From the IMG/VR virus record IMGVR_UViG_3300033146_003848, positions 62,001 to 126,000 of that record: DNA of 64,000 nt; one strand, 5' to 3'. Position numbers and translations under genes: made by a program. Numbering within the stretch: position 1 is the stretch's first letter; every line of letters starts with the position of its first letter. The notes beneath the pieces are model-generated. The model was given only the letters and a program-made list of their open reading frames with translations, ran no database searches and was not told the DNA's origin. Below are positions 7,409 to 62,356 of the stretch, one piece after another. The stretch comes from a virus.

Positions 7409-7608
7409 CATCTACAACAAGACATTGTGTGATTATAGGAAAAAACAGCACGAGTGAACATTCATTCACTATAGTATTAGGAGACAACTTAATCACAACA
7501 GATCAATTTCAATTAGTATTTGGTACCGCTGAGTCTCCAAAATATATTAAATTAAATGCTAATGACTATTTTAATATGAGAGATATTTTAGTGAGGTATG
7601 ATGACTAA
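7405..7608 (+). CDS. small protein, unknown function
   Basis: 67 residues, beta-rich pattern (HCVIIGK, FTIVLGD, FQLVFG). ATGA overlap with the anchored protein and overlapped at its end by the sigma-like gene, so it sits inside one operon. No family recognised. Confidence 0.6.
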   Translation: MTSTTRHCVIIGKNSTSEHSFTIVLGDNLITTDQFQLVFGTAESPKYIKLNANDYFNMRDILVRYDD

Positions 7609-8167
7609 ATTGAATTTTAATTATGATGAAGCATTGCGATATAGTAAATATTTTGCAAAGAAGTTTTTTCATAATACAATATATTATGATGATGCTGTAT
7701 CTCATGGACTTTTGGAAACTGCTAGAGCGTGGGAAAAATTTGATCCATCTCGAGATATTAAATTTAAAACGTTTTTGGGTAAGCATTTAACTCTTTCTAT
7801 GCAGAATTATTGGAGATCAATGAATCGGAATCTAGAACGGAATATTGGAGTAACTTCAATTGATGATGTTATTGAATCTCATTTGCCTAGTGAAAATGAT
7901 CAAATAAATTTAGATCTTCAACGTTGTTCGCGACTAGTTAATCAGGCTCTTATTGAATTTAAAATGGGGGAAAACCATAAAATGCGACTTGATATAATTA
8001 AGGTGTTATATGAAAAGTTTTATTTAGAGCGAGAGCAAACTGAAACAGCAAAGGATATGAATCTTAGTCGTCAGAGAATTAAACAACTGGAACTACAGGG
8101 ACTAACATACATTAAGAATCATTTAAATAGAGTTCTAGGAAAACGTCATGCTAATCCATTTAAATAG
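7601..8167 (+). CDS. sigma-70-like RNA polymerase factor
   Basis: 188 residues. Residues about 27-75 follow sigma region 2: DDAVSHGLLETARAWEKFDP, then IKFKTFLGKHLTLSMQNYWR, comparable to the family's GxxGLxxAxxxFDPxxGxxFxTYA core. Residues about 145-180 form a region 4 helix-turn-helix (ETAKDMNLSRQRIKQLE). Regions 1 and 3 are missing, as in phage or ECF-like sigmas. ATG 7601 is preferred over 7598 for spacing from GTGAGG. It may switch transcription to a later gene class, and no matching non-canonical promoter was identified here. Confidence 0.75.
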   Translation: MTKLNFNYDEALRYSKYFAKKFFHNTIYYDDAVSHGLLETARAWEKFDPSRDIKFKTFLGKHLTLSMQNYWRSMNRNLERNIGVTSIDDVIESHLPSENDQINLDLQRCSRLVNQALIEFKMGENHKMRLDIIKVLYEKFYLEREQTETAKDMNLSRQRIKQLELQGLTYIKNHLNRVLGKRHANPFK

Positions 8168-8233: not shown

Positions 8234-8266
8234 AAATATAGAAAATTGAGAATAAAGAGGAAAATA

Positions 8267-9919
8267 ATGCTACAGTATCGAGAATTAATTCAAAAGTATT
8301 TTATGAAATCGAAATTTAAACCTCGTAAAGGTCAAATTGAAATCATTAATGATATTCTAACTAAGTATGTTGATGAGCAAAAACGATATGTGATTTTAGC
8401 CGGAAGTACAGGTATAGGAAAGTCGTTGATTGCGTTGATAGTTTCTGAATGTTTAAATGAATTGAAAGGACATAAAGATGTAAATCAATCATATATCGTG
8501 GCTCATACTAATGCATTATTGAAACAATATTATGATTCATATGAGGATGGATTTGATATTCTCAAGGTAATGGGTCGAAGTAATTATAAATGTTCGGTTA
8601 TGATGGGAACAGCAGAGCATTGCATTCGCTCACCTAAAAATTCTAGTGGAATTGATAATTGGTGTCGCACTTGTGAATATTTGAGAATTAAGCGAGAAGT
8701 GCATAAAGTGGATCATTTTTGCACAAATTACTCATATCTATTTACTGCTATGGGTTCTATGAAAAAGAGGATGATTACTATATTTGATGAGACACATTTG
8801 TTGAATGAGCAATATGTTAATCATGCTAAGATTGAATTGACTCCAATCATTTTGACAAAAATGATTGGAGATATGAAGAAACTTGGATATACTCAACAAG
8901 AAGATGTATTGAAGCAAACTCAAAGATTCTTAACTGCAAATAAGGTTCATGATAATAATTATATTGCATTTTTAGAAAAAATGCGAGATGTGTTTGAAAA
9001 GGTAGTGAGTCTAATTTCCGTTGAAATGGTGTCAGCATTGACTAATGATAATAAGAAAGAGTATGTGATGTTAAATAGCATAAATGCGAAATATGATATT
9101 ATGCTCGATAGAATTAATAAATTTTTAGATGAAAACTATGAGCATGTTGTTGATATTAAAGAAGGGTCATTCATTCTCTCTGCTATATTTATGAGAGATA
9201 TGTTCCAAACTATTGATACATCTAAGTATTATTTATTCATGAGTGCTACTATAGATAAGGAATATTTAATAACAACTCTATCGTTAGATTCGGATGATGT
9301 TGCATTTGTACAACCAGAACCAGTATTTAATCCTGAACACAAGAATGTTATTCTTTGTGATTTTGCATCTTTAAATTATAGGAACATGAGTGATGATAAA
9401 TTTATGACCTCATTATCTGATCAGATCCATACTATAATAAAAAATCATCCAGATGAAAAGGGAGTTATTCAAGTCACAAGTTTCAAAACAGGAAACTTTA
9501 TAGCCAAACGATTAAAAAATTATATTTTTGATAATCGATTGAATTTGAAAGTAGTACTACAATCATCTAAGAAGCCTTTGAAAGTGTTATTGGAAGAACA
9601 TAAAGATAGTGAGAAGCCAACTATATTAATAAGTCCTAGTTTATTTGAAGGAATTGATTTGCCAGATGACGATTGTAGATTTCAAATCTTAGTTAAGGCT
9701 CCGTATTACTCTTTAGGAGATAAACGAATAAAATATATACTAGATCGATTCCCAAAGATTTATACTAAGTTAGCGACGTTTAGAATGGTTCAAGCGATAG
9801 GTAGAGGAGTTCGTTCGGAAGAGGACTTTTGTGATAATTATTTTATAGATTCTAATTTGAATAGGTTATTCTTTAGTGAACATAATCTATGGCAAAATGA
9901 ATGTACAATCATTAAGTAG
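8267..9919 (+). CDS. DinG/XPD-like iron-sulfur DNA helicase
   Basis: 550 residues, superfamily 2 helicase. Walker A GSTGIGKS (about 46), DEAH-type box FDETH (about 173), SATID (motif III), SPSLFEGIDLP (motif V region, about 460) and QAIGRGVRS (motif VI, about 505). Between motifs I and II, GRSNYKC followed by HCIRS, WCRTC and HFCTNYSYLF gives the spaced cysteines expected for the 4Fe-4S cluster of DinG/XPD helicases. Probably unwinds D-loops, R-loops or forked DNA during phage replication or recombination. ATG 8267 follows AGAGG. It has its own promoter. Confidence 0.85.
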   Translation: MLQYRELIQKYFMKSKFKPRKGQIEIINDILTKYVDEQKRYVILAGSTGIGKSLIALIVSECLNELKGHKDVNQSYIVAHTNALLKQYYDSYEDGFDILKVMGRSNYKCSVMMGTAEHCIRSPKNSSGIDNWCRTCEYLRIKREVHKVDHFCTNYSYLFTAMGSMKKRMITIFDETHLLNEQYVNHAKIELTPIILTKMIGDMKKLGYTQQEDVLKQTQRFLTANKVHDNNYIAFLEKMRDVFEKVVSLISVEMVSALTNDNKKEYVMLNSINAKYDIMLDRINKFLDENYEHVVDIKEGSFILSAIFMRDMFQTIDTSKYYLFMSATIDKEYLITTLSLDSDDVAFVQPEPVFNPEHKNVILCDFASLNYRNMSDDKFMTSLSDQIHTIIKNHPDEKGVIQVTSFKTGNFIAKRLKNYIFDNRLNLKVVLQSSKKPLKVLLEEHKDSEKPTILISPSLFEGIDLPDDDCRFQILVKAPYYSLGDKRIKYILDRFPKIYTKLATFRMVQAIGRGVRSEEDFCDNYFIDSNLNRLFFSEHNLWQNECTIIK

Positions 9920-10112: not shown

Positions 10113-11138
10113 ATGAAGTTAGAAAGAATAAAAATAGTTGAAACTGAATATGGAAAGACCGGTAGATCTAAGAATTATAATTTCAACTTTAATAAAATCG
10201 ATGGATCATTTATGCGTTGGGGTCAAACTAAAGATGATGATCCTGAGTTTGGATATCCTGAGATTTTAGATTTAGAAATATCTGAGATTTGTAATATGGG
10301 ATGTAAGTTTTGCTACAAATCAAATGTTGAATATTCTGGTAGGAATATGACTTTGGACACATTTAAAATCATTGTTTCTAAGATGCCCAAGACAATTACT
10401 CAAATTGCATTCGGAATTGGAGATATAGATACAAATCCAGATTTAGCAGACATCATTAGATATAGTAGAAATCACGGTATAATTCCAAATTTAACGATTA
10501 ATGGAAGTGGATTGACTGATTGGTGGGCAGACTTTTTCTCAGAATGGTTAGGAGCAATAGCCGTTAGTATTTACGATAAGAATTTATCATTTAATGCTAT
10601 TGAAAAATTAACGTCTAGAGGGATGAAGCAGGTAAATGTTCATTTTATGATATCAAAAGAAACAAAGAGTCAAGCGATTGCAATGATTGATCATATTAAA
10701 AGTGATCCTCGTTTGAAGAAAATGAATGCTTTAGTGTTTTTATCATTAAAGCCTAAAGGTAGAGGAGAAACGTTCCATGCTCTTTCTCAAGATGAATTTA
10801 ATGAAATAGTAAACTATGCTATTCGTCAGGAAATATCAATGGGATTTGATTCATGTAGTGCTCCGAAATATTTAGAATGTATTAAGAATGATTTGGATTT
10901 TAAAGAAAAGGAACAATTAGTGGAGCCTTGTGAGAGTGGACTATTCTCTTCATATATCAATGTTGCTGGGGAATTTTTCCCTTGTAGTTTCGCAGAGAAT
11001 CATTCGTCATGGACTACAGGAATTGATGTGATTCATTGTGATACTTTTTTGCAAGATGTTTGGTCGCATCCTAGAGTTATAGAATGGAAAAAGAATTTAC
11101 TTAAAAACTGTAGAAATTGTCCGATTTATAATGTTTGA
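10113..11138 (+). CDS. radical SAM / SPASM-type enzyme
   Basis: 341 residues. CNMGCKFC near residue 61 is the CxxxCxxC motif that ligates the SAM-cleaving 4Fe-4S cluster, GIGDIDTNPD and GIIPNLTINGSG fit the following barrel strands. The C-terminus carries a SPASM-like cysteine set (SCSAPKYLEC, EPCESG, FFPCSF, NCRNCP) that would hold auxiliary clusters. SPASM enzymes usually modify peptides or proteins. The next gene, starting nine bases later, and a related one 1.8 kb on share an unusual Ser-rich N-terminus, which makes them candidate substrates. Enzyme class is firm, substrate is inference. Confidence 0.88.
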   Translation: MKLERIKIVETEYGKTGRSKNYNFNFNKIDGSFMRWGQTKDDDPEFGYPEILDLEISEICNMGCKFCYKSNVEYSGRNMTLDTFKIIVSKMPKTITQIAFGIGDIDTNPDLADIIRYSRNHGIIPNLTINGSGLTDWWADFFSEWLGAIAVSIYDKNLSFNAIEKLTSRGMKQVNVHFMISKETKSQAIAMIDHIKSDPRLKKMNALVFLSLKPKGRGETFHALSQDEFNEIVNYAIRQEISMGFDSCSAPKYLECIKNDLDFKEKEQLVEPCESGLFSSYINVAGEFFPCSFAENHSSWTTGIDVIHCDTFLQDVWSHPRVIEWKKNLLKNCRNCPIYNV

Positions 11139-11146
11139 GGTATATA

Positions 11147-11821
11147 ATGAAAATTAGACATGGATTCGTAAGTAATAGTAGCAGTTCAAGTTTTATTGTT
11201 GCTATGAACGCTGATATTAATGATGATGTTGACCGTATGATGAGTCAATTAGGGGATGTTAGTGGTAAATATTCAAGTGCGTATTTTGATAATGAACAGA
11301 TAGCATCTCGAATTTGTTTAGATAAAGGTCAAATAGTTAGTCGAAAAATGTTTGTTCAATTATTGAAGAATAGTTATTATAATTTAATTGATGAATTCGA
11401 ATTAGAACGCACATTATCTGATGTATTTTTGGAGTATTTTCTTTATGATGATGAGGAGGAGGATGAAATTATTATTGAAGATTTGAGCGATAGAGAAGTT
11501 GCGTATTATTGGAGTCGAATATTACATAAGTATGATTTATATGTAGAGTGGGTTGAGGAGATGCGAGTGAATCGTAGACCTGATTTTTCAGAAATCAAAA
11601 AACAAATGAGCCCAAAGGCTACACTTGAAGAACTATCTCAAGAGTATGATTATCAAACTGAAGCGTGGGCAAATCGAGAATATGATTTATTATTATCAAA
11701 AATGAAGAATTATCAGCGATTGTATTTATTTGAATATGATGATTATTCTGAGTTTGAGGAGTATTTACAATATGGTAATATTTTTAGGAATTTACCGCAT
11801 ATAGTGTTGGGGAATCATTAA
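11147..11821 (+). CDS. SNSSSSSF-leader protein A (candidate radical SAM substrate)
   Basis: 224 residues beginning MKIRHGFVSNSSSSSFIV, then a very acidic helical body (DDEEEDEIIIEDL around 107-118). The start at 11147 follows TTTGAGGTATATA; a TTG at 11135 is in frame but has no site. The first 17 residues match those of the gene at 12986 almost exactly while the bodies do not, as expected for a processed or modified leader. I recall similar N-termini on unrelated hypothetical proteins of bacteria and phages, with no known function. Confidence 0.8.
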   Translation: MKIRHGFVSNSSSSSFIVAMNADINDDVDRMMSQLGDVSGKYSSAYFDNEQIASRICLDKGQIVSRKMFVQLLKNSYYNLIDEFELERTLSDVFLEYFLYDDEEEDEIIIEDLSDREVAYYWSRILHKYDLYVEWVEEMRVNRRPDFSEIKKQMSPKATLEELSQEYDYQTEAWANREYDLLLSKMKNYQRLYLFEYDDYSEFEEYLQYGNIFRNLPHIVLGNH

Positions 11822-12144
11822 TGAGTTTACGAAAGATTTTGAGTAGATGGTTTAAAAAAGACTTCATTAGTCTAAAATGGGCATTTATTGACTTTAGATT
11901 GTGGGTTTTTGAATTGGAAGATAACAGTTCTGATCCTATTTGGATCGAAGAGTGCGATGTGGATATTAGATTTAAAAGTCATTATAAGGCTGTACCTTGG
12001 TATAAATGTATGTTTACATTTCGAATTCCATCACGAATTAGAAGTTATATATCTCATATAATATCGATTTTAGTGGGATTAATAGTGGGAATTGTTATAT
12101 CTGAAAATTATGAATTTTTAATGGAGGTATTTAATGTTAGTTGA
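11821..12144 (+). CDS. protein with C-terminal TM segment
   Basis: 107 residues, basic N-terminus (LRKILSRWFKKDF), a middle rich in aromatic residues, and one hydrophobic segment at about 80-97 (ISHIISILVGLIVGIVIS). TAATG junction with the upstream gene (shared A at 11821). Unknown function. Confidence 0.65.
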   Translation: MSLRKILSRWFKKDFISLKWAFIDFRLWVFELEDNSSDPIWIEECDVDIRFKSHYKAVPWYKCMFTFRIPSRIRSYISHIISILVGLIVGIVISENYEFLMEVFNVS

Positions 12145-12778
12145 TACTATTTTGAATCGTGTTAGTGTAGTTGAGGTGTTGGATTTAATTGGAGAGTATT
12201 ATTATGATGGTGACTATGAGTACTCGAATCGACAAGGATTCTTGAAAACAATTCAAGAATTATGTCAAACAACATATTTGAAATCGAACGATGGGTTGAT
12301 ATTAACTATCAATCATTATGTGGATGAATATGATGGTGATGAATTCGAACAAGTGTCAGCAATAAAGAAAGATGAATCATTCTCATGGTCATTATCTTTA
12401 ACACCGTGGGCAGAATGGTTGGGATTAGAAGTGTCTAAGGAGACATTGAATAAATACACTGAAGGTGAAATTATGGCTCACATTCTTTGGGAAATGACAT
12501 TTTATGGATTTGATAGTAAGTCCGTTGAATCTCAAAGAGCAGAAATTTTTCAATTAAGTGAGGATGCGAAGAATGATCCGTCTAGTTACGTTTCAATGGA
12601 TGAATTATTTGCTGATTATGATATTGATTCGAATTTAACTTTGTCTGAATCGTTCGCAAAAGAGAGTGCTGACATCCTCGATGATAAAGATCGAACTATT
12701 GCTTTTTTCCAAAAAGCGGGGACACATAACAATGATGGAACATTAACTGAAAGAAATTCGTCAGGAGAAACCGAATGA
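12134..12778 (+). CDS. DUF6557-like protein
   Basis: 214 residues. The N-terminal half (ILNRVSVVEVLDLIGEYY, later SLSLTPWAEWLGLEVSK and EGEIMAHILWEMTFYGF) resembles the DUF6557 family, which has no known activity. The acidic C-terminal 60 residues look like an extension. GGAGG precedes ATG 12134, which lies inside the previous gene's end. Family match from memory of the motif order. Confidence 0.55.
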   Translation: MLVDTILNRVSVVEVLDLIGEYYYDGDYEYSNRQGFLKTIQELCQTTYLKSNDGLILTINHYVDEYDGDEFEQVSAIKKDESFSWSLSLTPWAEWLGLEVSKETLNKYTEGEIMAHILWEMTFYGFDSKSVESQRAEIFQLSEDAKNDPSSYVSMDELFADYDIDSNLTLSESFAKESADILDDKDRTIAFFQKAGTHNNDGTLTERNSSGETE

Positions 12779-12984
12779 ATTGGAAGTATAGTCATATAAC
12801 TCCATCTGGAGGGCATTTATATGAGCATATTAAAGAAGATCGAATAGTTGTGATTTATTCAAATCATTGTATATTTTATATGAATAGACATTTGAATATT
12901 CCATCAGCAACTGAGTTGTATTCTAGAATGCTACCGTTTATGTATAGTAAAAGTATTCGACGAAATGTCACGTTACGGAGATAA
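12775..12984 (+). CDS. small protein, unknown function
   Basis: 69 residues, aromatic and basic, starting at an ATGA overlap and ending two bases before the second SNSSSSSF protein. Beta-rich start (WKYSHITPSGGHLYEHI). No family recognised. Confidence 0.6.
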   Translation: MNWKYSHITPSGGHLYEHIKEDRIVVIYSNHCIFYMNRHLNIPSATELYSRMLPFMYSKSIRRNVTLRR

Positions 12985-12985
12985 T

Positions 12986-13405
12986 ATGAAGTTTAGATGT
13001 GGATTTGTAAGTAATAGTAGTAGTTCAAGTTTCATTGCGGTTTACGCCAAAGTGGAATTCAAGAAAGCAGAAGATGTTTTGAAAAAATTAAATCTAGAAT
13101 CGATGACGAAAGATGAATTCATTGCTAAGTGGAAATATGAATTTGATGATGGGTTTGAAAATGATTGGGCAGGAGTTCAGTTAGATGTCCCATCAATTGA
13201 TGAATTGAATGATAAATCTAGATATGTGTATTTTGAATCATGCGACGAACACAATGACTCTGATTTTTGGGATGGAGGTGAGTATGATTATGACATTGGA
13301 CTGGACGATTTCAGCAGTCGAACTAAACAAATATTCAAACAGGTTAGCAACGAAAATGGGTTTACTGATATTAGTAAGGGCTTTGGAGCAGGACGAAATG
13401 GATAA
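12986..13405 (+). CDS. SNSSSSSF-leader protein B
   Basis: 139 residues beginning MKFRCGFVSNSSSSSFIA, a near copy of the N-terminus at 11147, including the K-x-R-x-G-F-V-S-N-S5-F-I frame. The body is acidic and unrelated (DSDFWDGGEYDYDIGLDDF). ATG 12986 follows ACGGAGATAAT; an upstream in-frame ATG at 12965 lies in the preceding gene. Last gene before the next promoter, so it is probably co-transcribed with the radical SAM enzyme. Confidence 0.8.
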   Translation: MKFRCGFVSNSSSSSFIAVYAKVEFKKAEDVLKKLNLESMTKDEFIAKWKYEFDDGFENDWAGVQLDVPSIDELNDKSRYVYFESCDEHNDSDFWDGGEYDYDIGLDDFSSRTKQIFKQVSNENGFTDISKGFGAGRNG

Positions 13406-13951: not shown

Positions 13952-15379
13952 ATGATTCAAGTGAAAGGTAAACATACGAACGCTACAATATTCACTGATG
14001 ATGTGGAGAAAAGTTGTTTGTTGCAAATCCAAACATTCTGTAATCATCCAGTGTTTGATAAATTAAACATAGCAATGATGCCCGATACTCATGCAGGAAA
14101 AGGAGTTCCAATTGGAACTGTGGTAGCATTATCAGATAAGATAATTCCATCAGTAATTGGAGTTGATATTGCATGTGGAATGTTGAGTTTTTGTTTGGAA
14201 GTTGGAGATGAAAAATTTAAAGACTTTGATTGGATTAAATTTGATAAATTACTGAGAAGAAAATTGCCAACAGGAATGCATATTCATTCTCAAGGTATCA
14301 ATTTCAAACAGGAATTCCCGTGGTATGAAGCACAAAAACAATTTGATGCATTTAGAGATGAGTATATAAAACGATATGATAAAGAAATGCCGTATGTGGA
14401 ATATAATTACGAATGGTTCTTGAATCTTTGCACTAAAATTGGAAGTAATTCTCAAAATGTTACTCGTTCAATTGGAACTTTAGGTGGAGGAAATCACTTC
14501 TTAGAGATAGGAAGAAGTAAGGAAACTGGGAAATATTGGCTTACAATTCATTCGGGAAGTAGGAACTTTGGATTGAAAGTTGCAACATATCATCAAAAAA
14601 AGGCAGAAGATGTCTTGAAAGAAAAGAGAGTTCAATTGGAGAAAAATATTAAAGAAACAATATTGAATGACTCCACGAATTTACATAAGCGAAAAGAGTT
14701 ATTGCATGATGTAAAAGTGAATGCTAATTTAGATTTTGACTTAAATATTAAAGGACTTGAATGGCTTGAAGATGAAGATGCTGTTGAATATATGACAGAT
14801 ATGATTTTCACTCAAATGTATGCGGGATTCAATAGACAAACTATAGAGTATATTGCATTAGATTGTCTTCAAGAAAGTTTAGACATTCAATTTATTTATA
14901 ATGAGAGTATTGAGTGTATTCATAACTATATTGATCCTCATGATTGGTTCATTAGAAAAGGAGCCATACGAGCATATCAAGGAGAGAAAAGTGTTATTCC
15001 GTTTAATATGAGAGATGGACTTTTAATCTGCACTGGTAAAAACAATAGTGATTGGAACTATTCTGCTCCGCATGGTGCAGGACGAGTGTTGAGTCGTAGT
15101 GTGGCAAAACAAACAATTAAATTGGAAGATTTTCAAGAGACAATGGAAGGCATTCATACTACATCCGTCACAGCATCAACATTAGATGAAAGTCCATTTG
15201 TATATAAAGATTCGGAATTGATTGAAATATTAATTGAAGATACGTGTAATGTTTTAGAGCATGTTATACCAATATATAATATGAAAAATGCTTCTGAAAT
15301 ATATATGAAACAAAAAAAAGAGCGAGATGATGAGGAGAAGAAGAATTATTCTAATACAATGGGCTGGGAAATTAAATGA
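13952..15379 (+). CDS. rtcB: RtcB-type RNA ligase
   Basis: 475 residues. Joins 2',3'-cyclic phosphate or 3'-phosphate RNA ends to 5'-OH ends using GTP and Mn2+. Visible signature motifs: MPDTHAGKG (about 42), GVDIACGM with the metal-binding Cys (about 71), GTLGGGNHFLEI (about 175), IHSGSRNFG (about 197) and SAPHGAGR with the guanylated His (about 372). In a phage the obvious job is repair of tRNAs cut by host anticodon nucleases. A second ligase of another family is encoded at 19731. The last 15 codons overlap another reading frame. Confidence 0.95.
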   Translation: MIQVKGKHTNATIFTDDVEKSCLLQIQTFCNHPVFDKLNIAMMPDTHAGKGVPIGTVVALSDKIIPSVIGVDIACGMLSFCLEVGDEKFKDFDWIKFDKLLRRKLPTGMHIHSQGINFKQEFPWYEAQKQFDAFRDEYIKRYDKEMPYVEYNYEWFLNLCTKIGSNSQNVTRSIGTLGGGNHFLEIGRSKETGKYWLTIHSGSRNFGLKVATYHQKKAEDVLKEKRVQLEKNIKETILNDSTNLHKRKELLHDVKVNANLDFDLNIKGLEWLEDEDAVEYMTDMIFTQMYAGFNRQTIEYIALDCLQESLDIQFIYNESIECIHNYIDPHDWFIRKGAIRAYQGEKSVIPFNMRDGLLICTGKNNSDWNYSAPHGAGRVLSRSVAKQTIKLEDFQETMEGIHTTSVTASTLDESPFVYKDSELIEILIEDTCNVLEHVIPIYNMKNASEIYMKQKKERDDEEKKNYSNTMGWEIK

Positions 15380-16220: not shown

Positions 16221-17276
16221 ATGATACCAAGTGAAATTTACAACAAATTAAATGAACATGTTATTGGTCAAGAACATGCTAAGAAAGTTTTATCGGTAGC
16301 AGTATATAATCACTATAAGAGAATTGACACAGAAGGACTCCAAGTTGATATTCAAAAGAGTAATGTGATGTTATTGGGTCCTACAGGAAGTGGGAAGACA
16401 TATTTGATTCAGACTCTTGCTAAAATGTTGGATGTACCATTAGCAATAGCCGATGCATCTTCATTAACACAAGCAGGATATGTTGGAGCAGATACTGAAA
16501 CTATTCTTAGAACGTTGGTAATCAATGCTGATGGAGATATAGTGAAAGCCCAACGAGGAATTATTTATATTGATGAGATTGATAAATTAGCCAAACGAGA
16601 TTTAGGGACCAGTTTGACTGCAAATCCATCATCAGAAGGAGTTCAACAAGCACTGTTGAAAATAGTTGAGGGAACCATTTGTGAAGTCCCAACTACAGGA
16701 CAACGGAAGAATCCTCACGGACAAACATTCCCAATTGACACAACTAATATTCTATTCATTGTTGGTGGAGCATTCATTGGAATGGAAGAGATGATTTCTG
16801 AAAATGGAAGTACATCTACAGTAGGATTCGGAGAGAATGTTGTGAAGATGAAAAGTGAAGATGTGAAAATATCAAAAACGTTAACTAGTCAAGATATCAT
16901 TCATTATGGTATGATACCTGAATTCGTTGGACGATTCCCAATTCACGCTGTTTTAAATGAATTGAGTGATGATGACATGAGAAGAATATTAGTTGAACCT
17001 AAGAATTCCATCATCAAACAATATCAAGAATTATTTAGAATTGATGGTGTCACTTTAACCTTCGATGATGAAAGTTTAGATAGTATAATTCAAAAAACAA
17101 AAGATGAAAAATTAGGAGCAAGAGGTCTTCGACGAACATTGGAGAGTGTAATGTTAGATATAATGTTTAATGCTCCGACTATGGAAAATTTAGATGGAAT
17201 TATTATTAATAAGAATGTTATCGAAAACGTAGAAGATCCTATTTATAAGTTTGTTGATGTTCAATGTGCATCTTAA
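16221..17276 (+). CDS. clpX: ClpX-like AAA+ unfoldase without zinc domain
   Basis: 351 residues covering the whole ClpX AAA+ module: Walker A GPTGSGKT (about 54), pore loop AGYVGADTE, Walker B IIYIDEIDKL (about 115), sensor-1 region LFIVGGAF, and sensor-2 GARGLRRTLE (about 295). The roughly 60-residue N-terminal Cys4 zinc-binding domain of bacterial ClpX is absent. The ClpP-docking IGF tripeptide corresponds to VGF in STVGFGEN, and the RKH pore loop reads RKN. It may dock on host ClpP with altered substrate choice or act alone as an unfoldase. Own promoter. Confidence 0.9.
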   Translation: MIPSEIYNKLNEHVIGQEHAKKVLSVAVYNHYKRIDTEGLQVDIQKSNVMLLGPTGSGKTYLIQTLAKMLDVPLAIADASSLTQAGYVGADTETILRTLVINADGDIVKAQRGIIYIDEIDKLAKRDLGTSLTANPSSEGVQQALLKIVEGTICEVPTTGQRKNPHGQTFPIDTTNILFIVGGAFIGMEEMISENGSTSTVGFGENVVKMKSEDVKISKTLTSQDIIHYGMIPEFVGRFPIHAVLNELSDDDMRRILVEPKNSIIKQYQELFRIDGVTLTFDDESLDSIIQKTKDEKLGARGLRRTLESVMLDIMFNAPTMENLDGIIINKNVIENVEDPIYKFVDVQCAS

Positions 17277-61941: not shown

Positions 61942-62356
61942 GTTATTATTATGGAAAAAATTAAAGGACATTGCTTCTGATTTTCTACAAGTTAGGGTGA
62001 AGGTTGGAGAGTTACAACGGAGAATTGAGCAATTGGAGCAGAATATTGAGGTTGAATCATTAGGGTCGGATGTTCAGTTGGACACATCTGGGATGAAAGA
62101 AATTGGAGTTGAGAAGTTTTATGGTTCTTGTTTAAGGATCATAATTGAGAATGGTAAATGTGAGTCTGTGGACTGCAAAGATTGTCCATTTTCTTATAAG
62201 AATTCAGTACTAAATATTGGTTGCTCTGAGAGTAAATTAAGTGGAGTAAGTGATAAAGCAAGTGAGGATGGAGTTTTATTACAGAATGCGAAAAAATTCA
62301 TTATCACATATGATTCTAAGTTTTCTGATCAGAAAGAATTATCATATCGGACTTAG
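61934..62356 (+). CDS. coiled-coil Cys protein, paralog of 62515
   Basis: 140 residues from ATG 61934 (MLELLLWKKLKDIASDF), chosen because two downstream relatives open with MIELL. Coiled coil at about 15-45, then FYGSCLRIIIENGKC, DCKDCPFS and a later Cys: a C-x10-C-x4-C-x2-CPFS metal site. ATG 61913 is the alternative start. Confidence 0.65.
   Translation: MLELLLWKKLKDIASDFLQVRVKVGELQRRIEQLEQNIEVESLGSDVQLDTSGMKEIGVEKFYGSCLRIIIENGKCESVDCKDCPFSYKNSVLNIGCSESKLSGVSDKASEDGVLLQNAKKFIITYDSKFSDQKELSYRT

Follow-up and report, generated by a model that had tools for sequence, protein, structure and literature searches.

The window analysed here, a 64 kb stretch of DNA spanning positions 62001–126000 of a 146,140-bp virus record, carries on its + strand a gene for a putative modifying enzyme of the radical S-adenosylmethionine (radical-SAM) superfamily, which we call type 1 (10113–11138, 341 aa; PF04055, phrog_7293), together with genes for two proteins that start alike. 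Motif protein 1 (11147–11821, +, 224 aa) and motif protein 2 (12986–13405, +, 139 aa), both putative substrates, have the N-terminus MK[I/F]RxGFVSNSSSSSFI in common, and their sequences diverge afterwards. The tail of motif protein 1, MKIRHGFVSNSSSSSFI (11147–11197, +), is a putative recognition and modification site, and that of motif protein 2 is MKFRCGFVSNSSSSSFI (12986–13036, +). A preliminary description of this DNA had placed two proteins with the same N-terminus and different bodies at 11147 and 12986, and both open reading frames (ORFs) were verified there; they hold the only two copies of the motif in the entire 146-kb record. As argued below, the most likely role of the enzyme is to modify the [S/T]-N-S-S-S tail that these proteins share. 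Between the two motif genes, and likewise on the + strand, lie two ORFs without the motif, one of 107 aa (11821–12144), for which the family-library search of the window proteins gave nothing above cut-off, and one of 214 aa encoding a DUF6557 protein (12134–12778; PF20194, 100 bits), which was absent from the recurrent neighbours of motif genes in our neighbour-family survey. A 69-aa ORF is also found on the + strand of this region.

A DNA pattern encoding GFVSNSSSSSF, made partly degenerate, was scanned over viral contigs and over bacterial and archaeal genomes totalling 257 Gb; it matched 98 stretches in the viral contigs versus five in the cellular genomes. The five all came from contigs of metagenome-assembled genomes (L113–L117, assigned to Chitinispirillales, Spirochaetia, Treponema, Thermoplasmata and Omnitrophota) and are perhaps phage contigs within the bins. 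The tail is widespread, N-terminal and essentially viral. Among the loci fetched, 453 distinct proteins are headed by it, always from residue 1. Their genes stand in tandem, nine or more in the longest arrays, and a single genome can encode as many as 11 different tagged proteins. K2, R4, G6, F7, V8, S9, N10, S11, S12, S15 and F16 are 96–100% conserved in these proteins and S13 and S14 86–90%, under a regular expression that imposed N10, S/T at position 9 and S/T/A at positions 11–12 and left R4 and F16 unconstrained; conservation ends at residue 18. In the structure prediction for motif protein 1, residues 1–4 and 7–9 are of low confidence or predicted to be disordered, and a first strand is predicted at 13–20.

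Over the motif, the DNA of the two window copies is nearly identical, which would suit a shared 5′ end acting as a DNA or RNA element, such as a recombination site or a translational control signal, with the amino acids being incidental. However, each serine position uses all six serine codons across the 453 proteins, alternative Arg, Gly, Val and Phe codons occur likewise at the same positions, and the reading frame is always kept. The use of all six codons at each serine therefore points to selection on the protein, and codon usage largely refutes the nucleic acid element, to which we give next to no probability. The tail variants are also uniform within a genome despite unrelated bodies (SLVSN in L234, TF(V/A)SN in L224, GHVSN in L207 and GFVTN in G036); identity at the variable tail positions was 0.817 within genomes versus 0.760 after permutation, and 0 of 300 permutations reached the observed value. 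Such co-variation fits an adaptation of the tails to what would be one enzyme per phage.

The enzyme and the tail were found to accompany each other in both directions of search. With the aligned family of the window enzyme as the search model against whole contigs, we found the type-1 enzyme encoded in 44 of the 50 viral contigs chosen by the motif alone, nearly all with E < 1e-100; the same model found nothing in 17 random viral contigs of at least 45 kb. The nearest known motif gene lies at a median of 628 bp from the enzyme gene, on the same strand in 44/44 contigs and within 1 kb in 25, with a combined placement p of about 7e-19, a value that ignores the kinship of a few closely related contigs. 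Conversely, motif genes are present within 10 kb in 66 of the 73 loci chosen by the enzyme alone (65 by script, after a spurious internal match in L232 was dropped, plus L247 with a DFVSNSSSSSF variant). Four of the remaining seven loci (L229, L232, L233 and L239) belong to RB43/KP15-type phages, two end at a contig edge, and the last, L246, is taken up below. The enzyme is also the only conserved neighbour of the motif genes: counting families up to 2.5 kb away, it is present at 70 loci and the runner-up at six. The preliminary description had staked its proposal on a neighbourhood survey of SNSSSSSF proteins; the link to radical-SAM genes holds, and the opposite outcome, most such proteins lacking one nearby, was not what we found.

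The RB43-type arrangement is illustrated by a relative, Citrobacter phage Miller (KM236237), where the enzyme gene lies at 91–92 kb (91374–92528) and motif genes lie at 72.4 kb and 68.5 kb, one of the Miller motif proteins being encoded at 71969–72481; no motif was seen in the immediate neighbourhood of the enzyme, the motif genes being about 20 kb off. These two proteins belong to the same two body families as those of the window. A blast search with motif protein 1 of the window gave no match in cultured phages because the bodies diverge too far, and the Miller copy was found by direct search of the genome. In the cultured-phage collection, most of the enzyme is present in 171 records and most of Miller's motif protein in 174, with nearly identical genus counts. 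Taken together, the pairing of enzyme and substrate is strongly supported.

The window enzyme scores 39.2 bits against PF04055 (cut-off 29.5), which places it in the radical-SAM superfamily, and matches phrog_7293 with an E value of 5e-92, a family listed in PHROG as of unknown function. Its CxxxCxxC motif reads CNMGCKFC at residues 60–67, with C60, C64 and C67 as the radical-SAM cluster cysteines, of which the second and third are invariant in 53/53 relatives and the first is in its column in 47/53, with variable spacing. The distance between the first two cysteines among type-1 enzymes is 3, often 7 and up to 12 residues (alignment A2), which is unusual for CxxxCxxC enzymes. Four further cysteines, C248, C273, C291 and C336, are invariant across 53 family members, a number that by the sequence would be enough for one auxiliary cluster. 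Thus, from the earlier assignment of CxxxCxxC plus SPASM-type cysteines, the CxxxCxxC motif and four extra invariant cysteines stand, and the SPASM match itself does not: PF13186 gave 18.2 bits against a cut-off of 21.5, and the seven-cysteine SPASM pattern is absent. Among the matches listed, curated NCBIfam radical-SAM models reached only 15–47 bits on the window enzyme against cut-offs of 131–850, and a profile search of PDB sequences returned one match, irrelevant to the question. The AlphaFold2 model (predicted local distance difference test score 94.7), in which a short N-terminal beta region precedes the barrel, has SkfB, CteB, SuiB, TigE and anSME as its closest solved folds in a structure search.

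One of the loci retrieved with the window enzyme carried a different tail, TFETNSSSxHS, and a pattern scan for this second type found 42 stretches with the consensus MKxxRRxVFETNSSSTHS[IL]. The corresponding contigs encode a separate radical-SAM family of about 300 aa, with CxxxCxxCHE and no auxiliary cysteines, which we call type 2. This enzyme is present in 30 of 33 contigs and lies within 1 kb of a tail gene in 23 (22 by script and G063 by reading). There is hardly any crossing between the two pairs: scores of the type-1 model in type-2 contigs did not exceed 59 bits, and those of the type-2 model in type-1 contigs did not exceed 55 bits, apart from one match of 106 bits, which is a fusion. 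A reading of R-x-G-F as resembling a glycyl radical loop was ruled out, since the Gly is not kept in type 2.

Three proteins combine a tail, a body and a radical-SAM domain in one chain. Salmonella phage Arash gp146c (OQ632216, L319:7491–8921) is a 476-aa protein beginning with the tail MYLTQIRYGFATNSSSSHSV; this tail is of the GFATNSSSSHS type, and the gene is annotated as a methyltransferase. The other two are L402 (G044:C1, about 166.9–168.4 kb; 495 aa, GFATNSSSSHS) and L403 (G077:C1, about 5.3–7.1 kb; 609 aa, GFACNSSSTHS), the latter with Cys rather than Ser/Thr before the Asn. Together with the second motif/enzyme pair, the three fusions lend weight to reading the genes as enzyme and substrate. 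An N-terminal [ST]NSSS protein also stands beside or close to the enzyme in four distant cultured phages, namely Microcystis phage LMM01 (tail protein gp130, Fe-S oxidoreductase gp128), Prevotella phage Lak-A2 (five tails), Rhodothermus phage RM378 (tail protein p106, enzyme p108) and Thermus phage phiYS40 (tail protein YS40_162, enzyme YS40_161). The core common to all pairs, including these distant ones, is R-x2-[F/L]-x-[S/T]-N-S-S-S, with the exceptions that Cys is possible before the N and that phiYS40 departs at the F/L position.

A conserved N-terminus on variable bodies encoded by tandem genes recalls the internal proteins of T4, and the predicted disorder of the tail would also be compatible with a sorting signal like the T4 capsid-targeting sequence, in which case the enzyme would be an unrelated passenger or another cargo. 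Yet the enzyme itself has no tail except in the fusions, it is the sole neighbour conserved beside the motif genes, and two enzyme families track two tails; we therefore regard sorting as quite improbable. A literature search for a virion proteome turned up none. The likeness to T4 is confined to small, variable phage proteins having a conserved tag at the N-terminus, whereas the present tag differs in sequence, is coupled to an enzyme and has no resemblance to the T4 prohead-protease site.

One might also suppose that nothing is modified on the proteins at all, and that the enzyme is stably complexed with the motif proteins and acts viperin-like on a small molecule or nucleotide, the tail being a subunit-binding tag. 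The fold of the enzyme model is also near viperin in the structure search, prokaryotic viperins (pVips) share the radical-SAM core and give a weak match by hidden Markov model (E 1e-10), and the fusions are compatible with a complex. On the other hand, the viperin model gave 34.3 bits where the curated level is 180, so that the window enzyme is far below viperin level, and unlike a pVip it has protein partner genes and auxiliary cysteines and no kinase-type neighbour. The best folds are those of peptide maturases, as many as 11 different tagged proteins in one genome would be odd as subunits of one enzyme, and the retention of N-S-S-S as the core with both enzyme families speaks for chemistry more than for generic binding. 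We consider the complex very improbable.

If the tail is the constant part, the bodies behind it are of many kinds. They sort into 97 clusters, 63 of them singletons, mostly with sizes of about 80–280 aa and falling into recurrent families with conserved C-termini of their own. Pfam searches on 110 representative motif proteins gave single marginal matches only, none meaningful. PHROG family phrog_7397, listed as of unknown function, is matched by 94 of these 110; the match seems to describe the shared tail rather than one protein family, because in the window proteins it covers the N-terminus only. The body family of motif protein 1, also present in phage Miller and its relatives, comprises 40 proteins (alignment A3) and has a C-terminal His that is invariant in 40/40; in motif protein 1 this conserved C-terminus sits in the last predicted strand. 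An EHG-x-IF segment precedes the terminal His in this family, whose mean column identity is about 21%. A structure search with the model of motif protein 1 found no solved fold alike (best E about 1). The family of motif protein 2 has 13 members, most of which end in GAG[RN][ND]G or a close variant, and includes Miller's second motif protein. The preliminary description had combined a conserved tail with a variable body; the tail is borne out by the 453 proteins, and the two window bodies turned out to be members of recurrent families and not random variable cores.

The strongly conserved C-termini of these two families, with the invariant terminal His and GAGRNG, raise the alternative that the tail is a docking leader only and that the enzyme modifies a residue elsewhere in the body, for example in the conserved C-terminal segment. 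Maturases of ribosomally synthesised and post-translationally modified peptides (RiPPs) are known to act in this way, including SuiB and CteB among the nearest folds. However, what is conserved at the C-terminus is not the same from one body family to another, and most families have no body residue in common (mean column identity 6% in alignment A5). The core found in every pair, the distant ones included, is [ST]NSSS. A docking role alone is thus unlikely in our estimation.

We therefore return to modification of the tail itself and consider it probable that the phage encodes a protein-marking system, in which one radical-SAM enzyme per phage places the same covalent mark on all tailed proteins. 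The enzyme would recognise the R-x2-[F/L]-x-[S/T]-N-S-S-S tail on otherwise unrelated small phage proteins, perhaps docking on the exposed segment via R4 and F7, and might then abstract a hydrogen within the [S/T]NSSS core or at an adjacent residue, so that all tagged proteins of a phage would receive an identical mark. From the patterns described above we infer three things: the tail is what the enzyme acts on, the residue changed belongs to the NSSS core, and the atoms involved are those of the serines. As for the chemistry, a redox-neutral reaction such as epimerisation, a side-chain cleavage or a dehydration is a slightly better fit than aldehyde formation; reactions that need no electron sink are mildly favoured because the type-2 enzymes keep no auxiliary-cluster cysteine. 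The marked proteins might be accessory host-takeover or counter-defence proteins, a reading suggested by their being diverse, tandem, variable and in no known family. A more general claim, on which we are evenly divided, is that of a phage-specific marking in which one unusual modification, for example a D-serine, a dehydro-amino acid or an aldehyde, is put on NSSS tails of unrelated viral effectors by at least two separately evolved enzyme/tail pairs.

Several observations weigh against tail modification. Six of the 50 motif contigs have no enzyme, one of them being 261 kb long (G050) and the other five 66–94 kb. At L246 (G085, 321 kb), a divergent type-1 enzyme has no recognised tail protein within 10 kb, and this locus may have a further tail variant. 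RB43-like phages keep the enzyme and the motif genes about 20 kb apart. The invariance of the serines was partly imposed by the search patterns. In addition, a canonical RiPP recognition element is missing, as are a protease and an exporter.

This last point bears on the RiPP-like layout proposed earlier, of which the conserved N-terminal leader with an adjacent modifying enzyme is retained. A short core peptide, its release by a protease and the usual exporter are not seen; instead, the bodies are larger and recurrent, without a conserved protease or exporter. The RiPP radical-SAM/SPASM maturases SkfB, CteB, SuiB and TigE, with the nearest folds, resemble the present case in standing beside genes with a common N-terminal recognition-like segment, and the type-1 enzyme shares their auxiliary-cluster cysteines. 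They differ in that here a large number of unrelated proteins, about 80–280 aa long, would be targeted at their conserved tail, with this conserved part as the putative modification site and no conserved peptide product, and in that the type-2 enzymes are without auxiliary cysteines. The anSME enzymes, close in fold to the window enzyme, likewise modify Ser/Cys in a short protein motif. However, they depend on auxiliary clusters and act on a CxPxR-type motif within a single enzyme family, whereas the tail here is N-terminal, common to unrelated bodies and free of any CxPxR/SxPxR-type motif.

Families 7293 and 7397 of PHROG cover the enzyme and the tail, and neither carries an annotation linking it to the other. 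The curated family libraries that we searched name no function for the system. The motif strings were not found in a search of 5.39 million papers, and literature searches on phage radical-SAM systems gave nothing relevant, preprints being outside their reach. Many large phages, including cultured T4-like ones, pair one radical-SAM enzyme with unrelated small proteins sharing a serine-rich tail, which suggests an undescribed system by which the phage puts a chemical mark on an entire set of its own proteins. Phage genomes consist mostly of proteins of unknown function, and here a testable chemical hypothesis ties about 100 body clusters to one enzyme. If it is true, an undescribed viral protein modification would extend from cultured T4-like phages to Lak megaphages, cyanophages and thermophilic phages, and phage effector proteins could be searched for by their tail. 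RB43-type phages carry both the enzyme and tagged proteins, and the idea is therefore directly testable in E. coli.

Lastly, we note several other genes near the locus in the window. Upstream are a sigma-70-like factor with regions 2 and 4 (7598–8167) and a DEAD/XPD-like helicase (8246–9919), and downstream are an RtcB-type RNA ligase (13952–15379) and a ClpX-like AAA+ ATPase (16221–17276), which begins directly at the ATPase domain.

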